From assembly GCF_009931695.1 (NCBI RefSeq), contig NZ_CP048000.1, positions 4,916,501 to 4,980,500 of the forward strand: a stretch of 64,000 bases of DNA. Reading direction: 5' to 3'. This stretch comes from Anaerocolumna sedimenticola. GTDB lineage: Bacteria; Bacillota; Clostridia; Lachnospirales; Lachnospiraceae. Below, piece after piece: positions 35,340-62,728 of this stretch (position 1 is the stretch's first letter; each line of letters opens with the position of its first letter). Both the position numbers and the translations under genes were made by a program. The notes under the pieces are model-generated. The model did not search any database and had not been told where the DNA came from. It saw only the letters and a list, made by a program, of their open reading frames with translations.

Positions 35340-35349
35340 CAAAAAGTAT

Positions 35350-35429
35350 TAGTGAAAGAAAATATAGTTAAGAAAAGGATGCCGTATAAGATTTTATAAT
35401 CTATTTTTCTGGCAGTGGGACTGTAAAAT
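35350..35429 (+). promoter_or_regulatory. Compact redox-leader RNA upstream of rex (copy 1)
   Basis: The leader shares GTGAAAGAAAATATAG and GGxTGCC with the hydA and nfnA leaders and ends in GGCAGT. AGAAAATATAG (35357-35367) can pair with CTATTTTTCT (35401-35410) with one bulge; the enclosed TGCC (35380-35383) can pair with GGCA (35411-35414) outside the stem, an H-type pseudoknot. It lacks the two extra hairpins of the larger copies. Confidence 0.5.
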
Positions 35430-36086
35430 ATGAACGATTTTAACGATTCCCCCATTTCAATTTCAACACAGGCATTGGAGCGTATGCCTTATTATCTTCA
35501 ACATTTAAAGCAGCTTCAAAAAGAAGGGATTACCGTCATTGCCTCACCTGCAATTGCAGCAGATCTTTCCTTGAATGAAGTTCAGGTAAGAAAGGATTTA
35601 GCCGCTGTCAGCACTTCCAAAGGAAAGCCCAAATCCGGATTTATCATATCCGATTTGATTTATAATATGGAAAATATATTGGGATACCATAATGTGAAAG
35701 ATGCTGTTTTAGTAGGTGCCGGTTACCTTGGCAGTGCACTTCTTTCCTATAAAGGATTTGATAGCTGCGGAATGCATATCGTTGCAGCTTTTGATATTGA
35801 CGATACGATTGTAGGCACCGAACTATGCGGTAAAAAAGTCTTACCGGTTAATAAGTTAAGCGGAATGTGCAGACGTATGAATATTCATATCGGTATTATC
35901 GCAGTACCGGAAGACCAGGCTCAGACAGTATGTGATCAACTTGTTGCCGGCGGCATTCTGGCAGTCTGGAATTTTGCCCCGGTTCATTTAAATACACCGG
36001 AAACCATTATGGTAAAGAATGAAAATATGGCTGCTTCTCTGGCTATTTTATCAAAACACCTACAGGAAAAAATAAAACAATCGTAA
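35430..36086 (+). CDS. rex: Redox-sensing transcriptional repressor Rex, first copy
   Basis: The 218-residue Rex has an N-terminal winged helix (ISTQALERMPYYLQHLKQLQ, NEVQVRKDLAAVS) and a Rossmann domain (AVLVGAGYLGSALLSYKGFD, HIVAAFDIDDTIVGTELCGK), ending with VWNFAPVHLNTP. Rex binds NAD(H) and leaves its operator when NADH rises. Phe/Tyr changes in the dinucleotide loop (GAGYLG instead of GAGNLG) are minor. It leads a two-gene operon with a LysR regulator, behind a consensus promoter, a dyad and a structured leader. A second Rex is encoded at 57640 in the hydrogenase operon; the two are diverged paralogues. Confidence 0.92.
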   Translation: MNDFNDSPISISTQALERMPYYLQHLKQLQKEGITVIASPAIAADLSLNEVQVRKDLAAVSTSKGKPKSGFIISDLIYNMENILGYHNVKDAVLVGAGYLGSALLSYKGFDSCGMHIVAAFDIDDTIVGTELCGKKVLPVNKLSGMCRRMNIHIGIIAVPEDQAQTVCDQLVAGGILAVWNFAPVHLNTPETIMVKNENMAASLAILSKHLQEKIKQS

Positions 36087-54961: not shown

Positions 54962-55076
54962 GATTTTTATATAACGGCACAAAATCTTAACGTTTGCTTG
55001 AATATTTTAACATACTGTCTGTTCATTAATTTTGTATGATTTTTTTATGTTAAACTATATGCATCTATATCCATTC

Positions 55077-55108
55077 TGGCATATCGATAACAGTATATCG
55101 ATATGCCA
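55077..55108. promoter_or_regulatory. Perfect 13-bp dyad upstream of nfnA
   Basis: TGGCATATCGATA and TATCGATATGCCA flank a 6-bp spacer. It contains the same TATCGATA core as the two dyads at 35312 and 54932. Confidence 0.65.
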
Positions 55109-55136
55109 TCTTTATATTACAAGATAAAATCAGAGT

Positions 55137-55154: not shown

Positions 55155-55245
55155 TAAAATACAATCAACAAGATGTATCACACAGTTACGTCTTTAATAG
55201 GCATACTGTAACATTTACGGTCGCCTAAGCGGCCATGTTGCGTTC

Positions 55246-55398
55246 GTGTGAAAGAAAATATACTTAAAGGAAGGAATGCCACATTAAGATTCTTTCGCAC
55301 TTTTTATTTTTGACAATAGAATGCATGTCTTATCTGAAATCTATTGTTTGTGGCAGTAACACATCTGCGAGCAGATGTGTTATGCAATGGGTATTAAT
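55246..55398 (+). promoter_or_regulatory. Pseudoknotted redox-leader RNA upstream of nfnA (copy 2)
   Basis: Helix A: GTGTGAAAGAA (55246-55256) pairs with TTCTTTCGCAC (55290-55300). TGCCACA in its loop (55277-55283) pairs with TGTGGCA (55349-55355) outside, a pseudoknot. Helix D (ACAATAGA 55313-55320 / TCTATTGT 55340-55347) lies between, and helix E (AACACATCTGC / GCAGATGTGTT, 55358-55381) follows directly before the GGGT ribosome-site region and the ATG at 55399. The same elements in the same order precede hydA. I do not recognise a known riboswitch class. Confidence 0.7.
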
Positions 55399-56241
55399 AT
55401 GAATCAAATAATAAAAAAACAAATATTAAATCCCACGGTTACATTAATGGAGATTGATGCACCCATGATAGCCAAAAAAGCTGAACCGGGTCAGTTTATC
55501 ATTCTTCGTGTGGATGAAAACGGTGAGAGAATTCCATTAACGATTGCTGATTATAACCGTGAAAAAGGTACGGTGACCATTATTTTCCAAATCGTAGGCG
55601 CGTCAACAGAAGCCTTAAATCACTTAAATACGGGTGATTATATTCAGGATTTTGCAGGACCTTTAGGAAAAGCAACGGAAACAGAAGGTTTAAAGAAGGT
55701 TGCCGTAGTAGGCGGCGGTGTTGGTTGTGCTATCGCTTATCCGGTAGCGAAAAAACTTCATGAACAAGGCTGCGAAGTACATTCTATCGTAGGTTTCCGT
55801 AATAAAGATTTAGTTATCTTAGAAGAAGAATTTAAAAATGCCAGCAGTAAACTGGTATTAATGACAGATGACGGCAGTTACGGAGAAAAAGGGCTGGTAA
55901 CCGATGCACTTAAAGCATTAATTGAAGACGGTAACCAATATGATACCGTAATCACCATAGGACCACTTATCATGATGAAGTTTGTATGCAGCTTAACAAA
56001 AACATATGGAGTTAAAACCATTGCCAGTATGAACCCGATTATGATTGACGGAACCGGTATGTGCGGCGGCTGCCGCTTAAGTGTCGGTGGTAAAACCAAA
56101 TTTGCCTGCGTAGACGGACCGGATTTTGAAGGCTTTGAAATAGATTTTGATGAAGCTATTGCCCGCTCATCCATTTATAAACCATTTGAACTTAAAGCTC
56201 ATGAAACGTTATGTAATCTATATAAAATGGAGGTGAAATAA
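55399..56241 (+). CDS. nfnA: NADH-dependent ferredoxin:NADP+ oxidoreductase subunit NfnA
   Basis: The ~280-residue subunit has an N-terminal ferredoxin-reductase-type FAD domain (AEPGQFIILRVDENGERIPL), an NAD-binding domain (VAVVGGGVGCAIAYPVAKKL) and a C-terminal 2Fe-2S Cys cluster (MCGGCRLSVGGKTKFACVDG). The longer frame from 55375 would run into the leader RNA; I use the ATG at 55399. With NfnB it forms the electron-bifurcating complex that couples NADH and reduced ferredoxin oxidation to NADP+ reduction, located in the cytoplasm. It is first in nfnA-nfnB-rex-hydC-hydB and lies directly behind the structured leader and a possible Rex box. Confidence 0.9.
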   Translation: MNQIIKKQILNPTVTLMEIDAPMIAKKAEPGQFIILRVDENGERIPLTIADYNREKGTVTIIFQIVGASTEALNHLNTGDYIQDFAGPLGKATETEGLKKVAVVGGGVGCAIAYPVAKKLHEQGCEVHSIVGFRNKDLVILEEEFKNASSKLVLMTDDGSYGEKGLVTDALKALIEDGNQYDTVITIGPLIMMKFVCSLTKTYGVKTIASMNPIMIDGTGMCGGCRLSVGGKTKFACVDGPDFEGFEIDFDEAIARSSIYKPFELKAHETLCNLYKMEVK

Positions 56242-57639: not shown

Positions 57640-58278
57640 ATGATTTATAAGTCCATTTCCACGCAAACATTACAGCGGCTTCCAATGTATCTGAATTACC
57701 TGAAATCTTTGCCTGATAATCAGATTTTAAATATTTCAGCTACAACGATCGCCGAGGCATTAAAGTTTAATGATGTGCAGGTAAGGAAGGATTTAGCAAT
57801 AATTAGTTCCGGCGGCCGGCCGAAAATTGGATATATTACGAAAAACCTGATCTTTGATATAGAAAAATTCTTAGGTTACGATGATGCAGACAGTGCTGTT
57901 ATAGCCGGTGCCGGAGATTTAGGCCGTACTCTTCTCTCCTATGACGGTTTTTCCAAATATGGCCTTGATATTATTGCCGCATTTGATGTGAGAGAGGATA
58001 TTATCGGTACTACTATTAATGGTAAGAAAGTACTCTCCTCTGATAAGCTGAAAGATTTATGCGGCCGTATGAAAGTCCGTATCGGAATAATAGCCGTACC
58101 GGCATCGGAAGCGCAGGAAATCTGTAATTCCATGGTAGAAAGCGGTATCCTTGCCATCTGGAACTTTGCGCCGGTTAATTTAAATGTACCGGACAGCGTT
58201 CTGGTTCAAAATGAAGATATGGCCTTTTCACTGGCTAAGTTATCCAAAAGTTTATCAAAGAAATTGTGTCTGAATTAG
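57640..58278 (+). CDS. rex: Redox-sensing transcriptional repressor Rex, second copy
   Basis: The 212-residue Rex has an N-terminal winged helix (ISTQTLQRLPMYLNYLKSLP, NDVQVRKDLAII) and a Rossmann domain (AVIAGAGDLGRTLLSYDGFS, DIIAAFDVREDIIGTTINGK). It lies 2 bp after nfnB and inside the hydrogenase operon, a common position in clostridia, where Rex controls hydrogenase, Nfn and butyrate or ethanol genes according to NADH/NAD+. It is clearly diverged from the Rex at 35430, so the two may have different operators. The long plus-strand run from nfnA through hydB suggests one regulated unit. Confidence 0.92.
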   Translation: MIYKSISTQTLQRLPMYLNYLKSLPDNQILNISATTIAEALKFNDVQVRKDLAIISSGGRPKIGYITKNLIFDIEKFLGYDDADSAVIAGAGDLGRTLLSYDGFSKYGLDIIAAFDVREDIIGTTINGKKVLSSDKLKDLCGRMKVRIGIIAVPASEAQEICNSMVESGILAIWNFAPVNLNVPDSVLVQNEDMAFSLAKLSKSLSKKLCLN

Positions 58279-58332
58279 TAAGCTCATCATGTAATTTAAT
58301 AAAAAAAGTTCATTTTCAGAATGGAGGATTAT

Positions 58333-60692: not shown

Positions 60693-60846
60693 ATAGGTAA
60701 TTGCGAAACTATGTAGTTTTTCGAATATACCATACAATTGATACGAAGTTTATAGCTTCAGTTGCCCTCCGGGGACAAATTCGGCTCTAAAATTGTATTA
60801 ATGGCATGGTATATAAGATTCAATATTGGAGCTTCGCAATTACCTA
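60693..60846. repeat. Palindromic ~153-bp repeat, copy C
   Basis: The element has well-kept ends (ATAGGTAATTGCGAAACT; right end CTTCGCAATTACCTA) and the internal palindromes seen in copies A and B, with a TTGCC/GG(G)CAA-like centre. It inserts 10 bp after the hydB stop and ends 25 bp before the hydA leader, so it separates hydB from hydA in an otherwise continuous gene run. Confidence 0.8.
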
Positions 60847-60870
60847 AGAGAAAAATAGTATGAGAGGTAA

Positions 60871-61024
60871 GAGTGAAAGAAAATATAGATAAAGAAAGGT
60901 TGCCACAAGGTGATTCTTTCACTCCTTTTTATCTATGACAATAGAGTGTTTACTTTGTCTGCATTCTATCGTATGTGGCAGTAACATATCTGCTTGCAGT
61001 TGTGTTATGCAATAGGTGTAAAAT
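60871..61024 (+). promoter_or_regulatory. Pseudoknotted redox-leader RNA upstream of hydA (copy 3)
   Basis: Helix A: GAGTGAAAGAA (60871-60881) pairs with TTCTTTCACTC (60914-60924), 11 bp perfect. At its second pair this copy has A-T where copy 2 has T-A, a compensatory change. Loop TGCCACA (60901-60907) pairs with TGTGGCA (60974-60980). Helix D (60938-60948/60962-60972) and helix E (AACATATCTGC / GCAGTTGTGTT, 60983-61006) match copy 2 in position. AGGTG then precedes the ATG by 6 nt. An extra pairing, ATAGAT (60885-60890) with ATCTAT (60931-60936), may compete with helix A. Confidence 0.72.
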
Positions 61025-62728
61025 ATGAATACGAATAATTATATGATAATAGACGGAATGCCGGTTGAAATAAACGGAGAGAAAAATCTTCTGGAAGTCA
61101 TTCGCAAAGCCGGTATAAAACTGCCTACTTTCTGCTACCACTCTGAATTATCCATATACGGTGCCTGCCGTATGTGTATGGTTGAAAACGAGTGGGGAGG
61201 ACTGGACGCCGCCTGTTCCACACCTCCCAAACCGGGTATGCAGATTAAAACCAATACCCAGCGTCTTAGAAAATACCGCAAAATGATCCTGGAATTACTT
61301 TTGGCAAACCACTGCAGAGATTGTACTACCTGCAACAATAATGGAAAATGTAAGTTACAGGATCTGGCTATTACCTTTAATATCGAGGGCGTACGCTTTC
61401 CTAATACGGCTGCGGAACCTAAGATTGACGATTCTTCCAATTGTATTACAAGAGATCAGAACAAATGTATTCTCTGCGGTGACTGCGTACGTATGTGCAA
61501 TGAAATCCAGAATGTCGGTGCAATAGACTTTGCTCACCGTGGTTCCAAAATGACCATAAGTACTGCATTTGACCAGCCAATTGCTTCTTCCCCCTGTGTA
61601 GGATGCGGTCAATGTGCGGCAGCATGTCCTACCGGTGCCATCGTTGTTAAAAATGATAAAAACAAAGTATGGGAAGCCCTGGATGATAAAAATGCGAAAG
61701 TTACGGTTCAGATTGCTCCTGCCGTGCGTGTAGCTATCGGCAAAGAATTAGGTCATTCCAATGGAGAAAATACCATAGGTAAAATCGTTGCTGCCTTAAG
61801 ACGTATGGGCTTTGACGAAATCTATGATACTTCCACCGGTGCCGATTTAACCGTTTTGGAAGAGTCCAATGAGTTTTTAAAACGGTTGGAAGCAGGTGAT
61901 AACAAGATGCCGCTCTTTACTTCCTGCTGCCCTGCCTGGGTAAATTTCTGTGAAAAAAATTATCCGGAATTGCTTCCTAACGTTTCTACCTGCCGTTCTC
62001 CGATGCAGATGTTTGCTTCCGTAATTAAAGAACAGAACAAAACTTCCAGCAGAAAACCTGTCCATGTAGCTGTAATGCCATGTACCGCTAAGAAACAGGA
62101 AGCAGCCAGGGAGGAATTCAAAGTAAACGGAGATCCGAATGTTGACTATGTTATTACTACCCAGGAATTGATTCAGATGATAAAAGAATCCGGTATCGTA
62201 TTTGCAGATTTAGAACCGGAGGCAGTGGATATGCCATTTGGAACTATGACCGGAGCGGGTGTGATATTCGGTGTAACCGGCGGGGTTACGGAAGCCGTAT
62301 TAAGACGTCTTTCTTCCGATAAATCTTCTACTTCTTTAATGTCAATTGCTTACCAGGGTGTTCGCGGTATGGAAGGTGTTAAAGAAACCAAAATTATGTT
62401 TGGTGACAGAGAACTTCGTATTGCCATCGTCAGCGGTCTTAAAAATGCAGGTGATTTAATTGAAAGCATTAAAGCCGGTGAGCATTATGACTTTGTAGAA
62501 GTAATGGCTTGTCCGGGCGGCTGTGTCAGCGGAGCAGGTCAGCCTTTCACTTCCCAGGAAGAAAAAGAAAAACGCGGAAAAGGACTTTATTCTGCTGATA
62601 AATTATCAAATATTAAACGTTCTGAAGAAAACCCTCTGATGATGTCCTTATATAATGGTCTGTTAAAAGGCCGTGTGCATGAGCTTCTGCATGTTCATTA
62701 TGCAGACAGCGTTAAGGAGGATAAATAA
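61025..62728 (+). CDS. hydA: [FeFe] hydrogenase catalytic subunit HydA
   Basis: The 567-residue protein has an N-terminal plant-type 2Fe-2S domain (CYHSELSIYGACRMCMVE), a His-Cys3 4Fe-4S motif (HCRDCTTCNNNGKC), two 4Fe-4S motifs (CILCGDCVRMCNEI, CVGCGQCAAACPTGAI) and the H-cluster domain with all three signatures: TSCCPAW (FTSCCPAWVNFC), MPCTAKKQEA and EVMACPGGCVSGAGQP. This makes it an M3-type HydA of a multimeric, NAD-linked enzyme with HydB and HydC. It is cytoplasmic and oxidises or makes H2 with electron bifurcation. Its own leader RNA suggests control separate from hydCB. Confidence 0.96.
   Translation: MNTNNYMIIDGMPVEINGEKNLLEVIRKAGIKLPTFCYHSELSIYGACRMCMVENEWGGLDAACSTPPKPGMQIKTNTQRLRKYRKMILELLLANHCRDCTTCNNNGKCKLQDLAITFNIEGVRFPNTAAEPKIDDSSNCITRDQNKCILCGDCVRMCNEIQNVGAIDFAHRGSKMTISTAFDQPIASSPCVGCGQCAAACPTGAIVVKNDKNKVWEALDDKNAKVTVQIAPAVRVAIGKELGHSNGENTIGKIVAALRRMGFDEIYDTSTGADLTVLEESNEFLKRLEAGDNKMPLFTSCCPAWVNFCEKNYPELLPNVSTCRSPMQMFASVIKEQNKTSSRKPVHVAVMPCTAKKQEAAREEFKVNGDPNVDYVITTQELIQMIKESGIVFADLEPEAVDMPFGTMTGAGVIFGVTGGVTEAVLRRLSSDKSSTSLMSIAYQGVRGMEGVKETKIMFGDRELRIAIVSGLKNAGDLIESIKAGEHYDFVEVMACPGGCVSGAGQPFTSQEEKEKRGKGLYSADKLSNIKRSEENPLMMSLYNGLLKGRVHELLHVHYADSVKEDK

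Follow-up and report, generated by a model that had tools for sequence, protein, structure and literature searches.

The Shine-Dalgarno (SD) helix is taken to form with a contiguous segment of the mRNA. Translational riboswitches with pseudoknots carry, like the leaders described here, a pseudoknotted 5′ leader that adjoins the RBS. Interspersed repeats of the REP, BOX and MITE type are short, dispersed, structured, and present or absent between relatives, as are these leaders. The pneumococcal BOX and RUP elements are short interspersed repeats of this sort according to the accessible part of PMC3049150. The accessible part of PMC3014915 describes the "split" TIRs of T4 genes 38 and 25, where structure shortens the SD-AUG spacing from 22 to 5 nt and from 27 to 11 nt, and that of PMC4679880 describes TAACTGA repeats standing just 5′ of start codons in the Beggiatoaceae.

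The leader of the hydrogenase gene hydA of Anaerocolumna sedimenticola (Lachnospiraceae) belongs to a family of pseudoknotted 5′ leaders that is dispersed and specific to its lineage. The family, its place before genes and its fold are near certain. The leaders are probably translation-initiation modules in which a split SD would be rejoined by the fold, a reading drawn from sequence comparison. The window analyzed is a stretch of 64,000 nucleotides, positions 4,916,501-4,980,500 of the single 5.5-Mb contig of this genome (labeled G000), and its features are collected in Table 1.

Table 1. Positions in the window of the three leaders, their parts and the genes that follow them
Feature	Position	Strand	Basis or remark
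hydA leader, whole (SD-like left flank to base before ATG)	60863..61024	+	R1 and sequence reading
hydA leader, P1 5′ strand GAGTGAAAGAA, pairs with 60914-60924	60871..60881	+	letters checked; P1 covariation in 101 own-genome matches
hydA leader, AGAAAGG in loop L1, proposed upstream SD half (16S tail positions 6-12)	60893..60899	+	complementarity
hydA leader, PK 5′ strand TGCCACA, pairs with 60974-60980	60901..60907	+	PK pair counts
hydA leader, P1 3′ strand TTCTTTCACTC	60914..60924	+	letters checked
hydA leader, optional hairpin insert in L3 (P1 3′ to PK 3′)	60940..60973	+	similar inserts by eye, e.g. L005, L151, L156, L176
hydA leader, PK 3′ strand TGTGGCA	60974..60980	+	letters checked
hydA leader, hairpin P3	60981..61008	+	P3 has the most double changes among helices
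hydA leader, AGGTG, proposed local SD half (16S tail positions 1-5)	61014..61018	+	duplex -6.2 kcal/mol
hydA, FeFe hydrogenase	61025..62728	+	family models
nfnA leader, whole	55238..55398	+	R1 matches and sequence
nfnA leader, P1 5′ strand GTGTGAAAGAA, pairs with 55290-55300	55246..55256	+	letters checked
nfnA leader, L1 half, variant AGGAAGG	55268..55274	+	letters checked
nfnA leader, PK 5′ strand, pairs with 55349-55355	55277..55283	+	letters checked
nfnA leader, hairpin P3	55356..55383	+	letters checked
nfnA leader, local half GGGTA	55389..55393	+	local duplex -3.8 kcal/mol
nfnA gene	55399-56241	+	family models
rex leader, degenerate (no P3, broken P1)	35342..35429	+	R1 34.9 bits, E 1.4e-5, filters off
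rex leader, L1-like GAAAAGG	35372-35378	+	letters checked
rex leader, 4-bp PK	35380-35383 with 35411-35414	+	letters checked
rex gene, standing alone with decayed leader	35430-36086		family models

The earlier note, made from the letters of the window, had described a shared leader in front of hydA, nfnA and rex, and the sequences that it quoted are present at the positions it gave: GTGAAAGAAAATATA, GGxTGCC and TGGCAGT are common to the three leaders. The 11-bp helix enclosing TGCCACA, which pairs outside the helix with TGTGGCA, is present in the hydA copy with corresponding parts in the nfnA copy, and the compensatory change from A-T to T-A is found at 60872/60923 in hydA and 55247/55299 in nfnA. 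The likeness is beyond chance, the hydA (77.9 bits, 60863-60989), nfnA and rex leaders all being recognized by model R1, which was built from 31 clean aligned copies, none from the window, and describes P1 and P3 only, with the PK left out. The match ends early in the hydA leader because of an insert in L3, and the nfnA leader gives two matches, 55238-55337 (67.0 bits) and 55338-55403 (30.0 bits), because of an L3 insert of its own (within 55310-55348). Two conserved hairpins had been claimed; the last of them, P3, is general, but the other is the L3 insert, which is optional. The rex copy is weaker, as had been said, but decayed rather than compact.

The best family model for hydA is hydrogenase group A6, under its cut-off, and the general group A model is over its cut-off. 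Between nfnA and hydA stand nfnB, a second rex, and hydC-like and hydB-like genes. The window encodes two Rex paralogs, at 35430-36086 and at 57640-58278, the latter between nfnB and the hyd genes. The hydC-like ORF with an ATG at 58321 has almost no SD (-1.0 kcal/mol), and its true start may be elsewhere. A marginal R1 match upstream of the nfnA leader (55049-55124, plus strand, 17.8 bits, E 0.06) may be due to chance or be a very old copy. Just 5′ of the hydA leader, at 60696-60844, is a repeat whose two ends are perfect 12-bp inverted copies of each other, GGTAATTGCGAA and TTCGCAATTACC; a repeat of this kind also stands inside leader copy L001.

The three leaders of the window are members of a large family. 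Exact matches to the 15-mer GTGAAAGAAAATATA number 18 in the 5.5-Mb genome, where the reversed control has 1; allowing one mismatch raises the counts to 48 and 9. The 15-mer was also found in 13 of 15 same-genus genomes. Among the 18 exact matches one (L002) has no leader following it, one (L001) is a leader broken by another repeat, and the remaining sites were read as leaders. Model R1 detects 100 copies at E <= 1e-3 in the own genome, where 150 candidates were scored, and leaders in all 15 same-genus (Anaerocolumna) genomes, from 3 up to at least 149 copies each. Farther out, with no more than 18 candidates per genome scored, R1 detects them in at least 18 of 200 genomes of the family; it detects them in 8 of 295 genomes of the order and in 1 of 398 genomes of the phylum, which is the own genome itself. 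The leader family is therefore lineage-bound. The copies are old, with nearest-copy identity at most 0.88 (median 0.83) among the 78 copies above 60 bits. The leader pattern also occurs on contigs assigned to distant taxa, in a Bacteroidales MAG (L248) and a Pelosinus MAG (L268), and these contigs are probably misbinned.

Neither the window nor 12 further loci with leaders or related modules gave a gathering-level match to a described class in Rfam 15. The sub-threshold hits, to snoRNAs and viral pseudoknots, are at chance level (best E 0.77). In the open-licence PMC literature we found no description of the family, including the accessible parts of PMC5171806 (a TSS map of C. phytofermentans), PMC8632094, PMC11109978, PMC2864571, PMC3014915 and PMC4679880. 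Shorter relatives exist. In genomes G055, G120 and G164 a short form (L097, L107-L109, L327-L343) consists of a P1 hairpin and P3 with no L1 motif or PK, often with AGGAG or AGGGG before the ATG. Other loci, L299, L308, L310 and L311 (5′ of hydA-like genes) and L313-L318, carry hairpin modules without the L1 motif between an old SD and a new one before the ATG; one such module is GCCCGC..GCGGGC with GGAG after it. In some cases these modules and leaders form chains. The L1-less hairpin modules and the leaders form a wider class of SD-adjacent inserts.

From 5′ to 3′ the leader consists of an H-type pseudoknot, the hairpin P3 directly after it, and the start codon. The pseudoknot is made by the interleaving of P1, of up to 12 bp, with the PK of about 7 bp. 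Covariation on aligned homologs backs the compensatory changes first noticed in the hydA and nfnA copies. In 101 own-genome matches 90.0% of cells pair and 19 of 28 pairs have double changes, with a covariation score of 0.251 against 0.121 (sd 0.005) for shuffled and 0.026-0.064 for slid alignments; in 82 matches from other genomes the figures are 93.6%, 23 of 28, and 0.266 against 0.121 shuffled, both alignments being fitted to P1 and P3. As the copies are related by descent, counts over them lack independence, and the strong p values make the case look better than it is. Taken alone, the PK has 17 double-change cells in the own genome against 5.2 (sd 1.9), a count reached in none of 500 shuffles. 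In the other-genome set its score shows no excess (0.069 against 0.064, reached in 89 of 500 shuffles), and its double-change cells number 6 against 2.2 (6 of 500 shuffles); either the letters hardly vary there or the copies are misaligned. Both interleaved helices of the pseudoknot are held by compensatory change, with the PK alone not significant in the other-genome set. Individual copies in other genera, read by eye, have exchanged the PK wholesale while keeping the pairing: GCAAACACAAA with TTTGTGTTTGYGC in L101 and L114, TGCCC with GGGCA (G144), ACCACA with TGTGGT (L110) and TGTCACA with TGTGACA (L414).

Additional hairpins accompany some copies. Two optional inserts recur in L3, a AATAGAATGC..GCATTCTATT hairpin and a TGTGAAACTTGTTTCACA hairpin, in L005, L151, L156, L176 and in L003, L012, L028, L033. 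P1 is often preceded, at a distance of about 10 nt, by a GATGCCGC..GCGGCATC hairpin (L062, L065, L068, L144, L030 and L077 of G000), which is perhaps the terminal part of an older module, perhaps an extra stem with a function.

The leaders stand immediately before start codons. In 87 of the 100 copies a sense ORF of 60 codons or more has its ATG between -14 and +10 nt relative to the end of the element, a count favored a little by the slight overlap of the last R1 positions with the start codon. The same rule applied on the antisense strand, outward from the 5′ end, succeeds in 2 of 100, and at random sites of a relative in 180 of 2000. Under a looser rule 97 of 100 copies have a start, 94 of them ATG. 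A small upstream ORF beginning in ..GGATGCC was considered and rejected: its ATG is missing in many copies (GGTTGCC, GGCTGCC, GGAGCC; by eye).

The genes behind the leaders have no obvious common theme. Family models identify rbfA, pyrH, nusB, nrdR, apt, ispF, ribF, leuD, accC and miaA, and further pheS, cysS, ispG, mnmE, galE, hemL, deoB, cinA, the C-terminal part of a transketolase, and flhA, these 20 having been picked as recognizable-looking rather than at random. The named genes are unrelated, and the set, for which 97 ORF N termini were viewed, is not one that a single ligand could explain. The three redox genes of the window are a small part of a leader set of about 100 genes.

Orthologs differ in whether they carry the leader. 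Of six hydA orthologs (87-100% identity) two have it, one has a degenerate form, and three have none: the leader is full in G000, divergent in G006 (with L1, a CTGCC:GGCAG PK and P3, by eye), degenerate in G011, and absent from G012 (97%), G005 and G002. A second hydA-like gene is preceded in G003 by GGAGGttaaag-ATG and in G013, G004 and G010 by GGAGG, a different hairpin module, a second GGAGG, and the ATG. In G012, sampled as 1.2 Mb in 60 evenly spaced stretches, 17 orthologs (at least 60% identity) of leader genes were judged by eye to have an intact leader in 8 cases, a degenerate one in 3, and none in 4, with 2 unclear. At ispG, G012 reads ..tttatagaggataataaaGGAGagcttctttt-ATG and the own genome ..tttatagaggattgcaaaGGGTATTTG-[leader]-ATG; here the left flank of the leader is apparently the former SD. 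Left flanks generally resemble an SD, with a median of -4.2 kcal/mol compared with -1.4 kcal/mol for sequence lying further 5′ (p = 4e-11). The presence or absence of leaders at orthologs, together with the SD-like left flanks, suggests that the leaders spread by being inserted between the SD and the AUG.

The transposase family Y1_Tnp occurs in 7 of 15 same-genus genomes; the search, made for Y1 only, found no Y1 transposase (PF01797) in G000, G011 and G012, and mobilization of the IS200/IS605 kind by such an enzyme was rejected for its absence from these three. An origin from phages or plasmids was also rejected, one canonical copy having no match in phage and plasmid collections. In the IMG/VR contig IMGVR_UViG_2585428173_000002 (L296), two stacked copies stand before a gene at about 360-450, on what may be the host flank of a provirus.

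Two unpaired segments of the leader are conserved. AGAAAGG in L1 is exact in 58 of 100 own copies and has at most one mismatch in 91 of 100 (best of 30 offsets), and the logo has GGGTG or GGGTA shortly 5′ of the ATG, GGGTG lying 5-7 nt after P3 and 6-10 nt before the ATG. In 21 sequences from outside the genus they are the best conserved of the unpaired segments, at 1.26 and 1.39 bits per column; the remaining loops and linkers have 0.46-0.80. GAAAGG is kept in L1 in 20 of the 21. From the L1 motif to the ATG is 47-143 nt, with a median of 83, in the 77 own copies with exact GAAAGG and an ATG start, and 114 nt separate the two proposed halves in the hydA leader.

Both segments are complementary to the 3′ tail of the 16S rRNA, and to parts of it that do not overlap. 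The own 16S gene ends GGATCACCTCCTTTCT.. (one site found). With the tail CACCUCCUUUCU numbered 1-12, AGAAAGG matches positions 6-12 (CCUUUCU-3′) and GGGTG positions 1-5 (CACCU). The 16S tail of E. coli is shorter. Best duplexes were computed for 87 intact copies (with L1, P1 and PK) from the 126 elements with a start, out of 150 given (100 own, 50 other); the remaining elements comprise 34 without L1 and 5 in neither class. The local segment uses positions 1-5 in 48, 82, 84, 82 and 89% of the intact copies and position 6 in 34%. For L1 the figures are 98, 98, 99, 99, 99, 92 and 74% at positions 6-12 and 72% at position 5, and in no copy does it use positions 1-4. In a relative, ordinary genes center on positions 4-8 (469 of 656 with a duplex of -6 kcal/mol or better). 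The footprints of L1 and the local segment share one base or none in 58 of the 87 copies (none in just 21) and more than one in 29. Duplex energies in the intact copies are -6.2 kcal/mol for the local segment, -8.8 for L1 and -16.5 for the two joined. The register is normal: the base pairing with C4 is at -9 or -10 from the ATG in 59 leaders, and ordinary genes peak at -9. The same partition of the tail repeats in 67 of 82 other-genome matches, the other 15 being short or without the motif. The energies of L1 and local duplexes do not compensate for each other among intact copies (Spearman -0.13, p 0.22), and since the 16S tail is invariant, pairing with it gives no covariation signal.

The local SD is stronger where the structure is lacking. 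Its median energy is -9.1 kcal/mol in 678 ordinary genes, -6.2 in the 87 intact leaders and -7.35 in the 34 L1-less copies (intact versus L1-less, p = 5e-5), the last contrast being confounded by lineage, as 81 of the 87 intact copies are from G000 and 29 of the 34 L1-less ones from other genera. Within the window, nfnB (-13.6 kcal/mol) and hydB (-12.0) have strong local SDs, and the values for the second rex and hydC are -8.7 and -1.0, against -3.9 (rex), -3.8 (nfnA) and -6.2 (hydA) behind the three leaders. Relatives that lack or have lost the structure have the stronger local SD in 9 of 10 comparisons with an intact leader here (Wilcoxon p = 0.006), four of the ten being at hydA and the relatives being classed by eye; the tenth relative is G011, whose degenerate hydA leader keeps a weak local SD (-3.8). 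A weak local SD is also found in some short forms without L1 (L094, L113, L346, L413).

We propose that each copy would stand between the old SD and the start codon of its gene. P1 and the PK would form the H-type pseudoknot, whose loop L1 would present AGAAAGG to the last seven bases of the 16S rRNA, and after the PK and the self-folded P3, GGGTG would pair with the five tail bases that precede them. The fold would loop out the intervening RNA, so that two halves, neither of them a full SD, abut and offer a nearly continuous 12-bp partner to the whole tail in normal register to the AUG. For this the two halves would have to pair at once on the ribosome, and translation would depend on the fold. 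A role at translation initiation, as the earlier note had suspected, is likely, and the leaders may also regulate. Whether the leaders amount to a new way of starting bacterial translation, in which an inserted element rejoins a split SD by means of a pseudoknot at about 100 genes per genome, among them genes of essential type such as pyrH, pheS and cysS, we regard as evenly balanced. The chances are likewise about equal that an inserted element would in this way stay harmless or even become useful, in effect a translational bypass without splicing.

Other explanations bear on the same observations. GGGTG by itself reaches about -6 kcal/mol and could act as a weak SD, so that it may be the sole SD pairing, with the A-rich AGAAAGG loop serving as a landing or standby site, possibly for S1, that would raise the local ribosome concentration; the two halves would then never pair together. 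L1 is indeed A-rich, and a nested model predicts greater openness for it (0.74) than for the remainder of the leader (0.46; n = 67), but a standby site has no need of an exact match to just that part of the tail that the local segment leaves free, nor of GAAAGG in nearly all the sequences beyond the genus, and we consider this explanation rather unlikely. It is less likely still that the leaders are a global translational switch. GAAAGGA could be masked, and with it the SD half, by pairing with the P1 3′ strand TTCTTTC, and a ligand, ion, protein or change of temperature might shift P1 and the PK to this hairpin, which can be drawn in the consensus from the letters and is mutually exclusive with P1. 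However, the downstream genes are no coherent set, and the loops besides the two SD halves are poorly conserved, unlike a ligand pocket.

A selfish repeat, whose hairpins would act at the DNA level in transposition and whose place before genes would merely be harmless, accounts for the high copy number, the tandem copies in G192 and G120, the presence or absence at orthologs and the SD-like left flanks; many dispersed copies of variable occupancy are what MITE or REP elements have. It does not account for the strict sense orientation and register to the AUG or for the conserved SD halves, the copies are old and diverged, and the Y1 transposase, the one kind searched for, is missing from G000, G011 and G012, all of which makes it very improbable. 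The redox riboswitch of the earlier note, which was to sense NAD(P)H, a flavin or another redox metabolite, has almost no probability left. All three copies in the window precede redox genes, the conserved structured 5′ leader is real and its belonging to no known riboswitch class was borne out in Rfam 15; the covariance-model search that the note had proposed did find homologs, but before genes far beyond hydA, nfnA and rex. Because the roughly 100 downstream genes are so diverse and the leader is patchy at hydA itself, this reading was rejected.

The split SD is a clear and testable claim. If halves 50-140 nt apart can be joined by a fold, a new term has to enter start-site prediction, RBS design and models of 30S loading, and in these genomes about 2% of genes (100 of roughly 5,000, an estimate from genome size) would have been misread as having a weak RBS. 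The leader family is also an example of how inserted DNA may be maintained before essential genes.

The leaders share features with several known systems. From riboswitches with pseudoknots they differ in having no coherent regulon, ligand-like conserved loop or Rfam match. From repeats of the REP, BOX and MITE type they differ in their fixed orientation, which depends on the gene, in their register to the AUG, and in carrying parts of the RBS. They resemble the Beggiatoaceae TAACTGA repeats in being a repeat family that precedes the starts of numerous unrelated genes, at sites where an ordinary SD is uncommon; however, as far as the accessible part of PMC4679880 goes, those are short tandem heptamers without a covarying pseudoknot or complementarity to the 16S tail. 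In arrangement they resemble T4 genes 38 and 25 as described in the accessible part of PMC3014915, where RNA structure likewise lies between SD and AUG and helps initiation. Here, too, covarying helices separate the two, but a complete SD upstream with none nearby is not what the leaders have, L1 taking positions 6-12 of the tail and the local segment 1-5. In T4 the SD is upstream and its distance to the AUG is shortened, whereas in the leaders the intervening fold is a pseudoknot with a hairpin, occurring about 100 times in one genome, and the SD itself seems to be cut in two.
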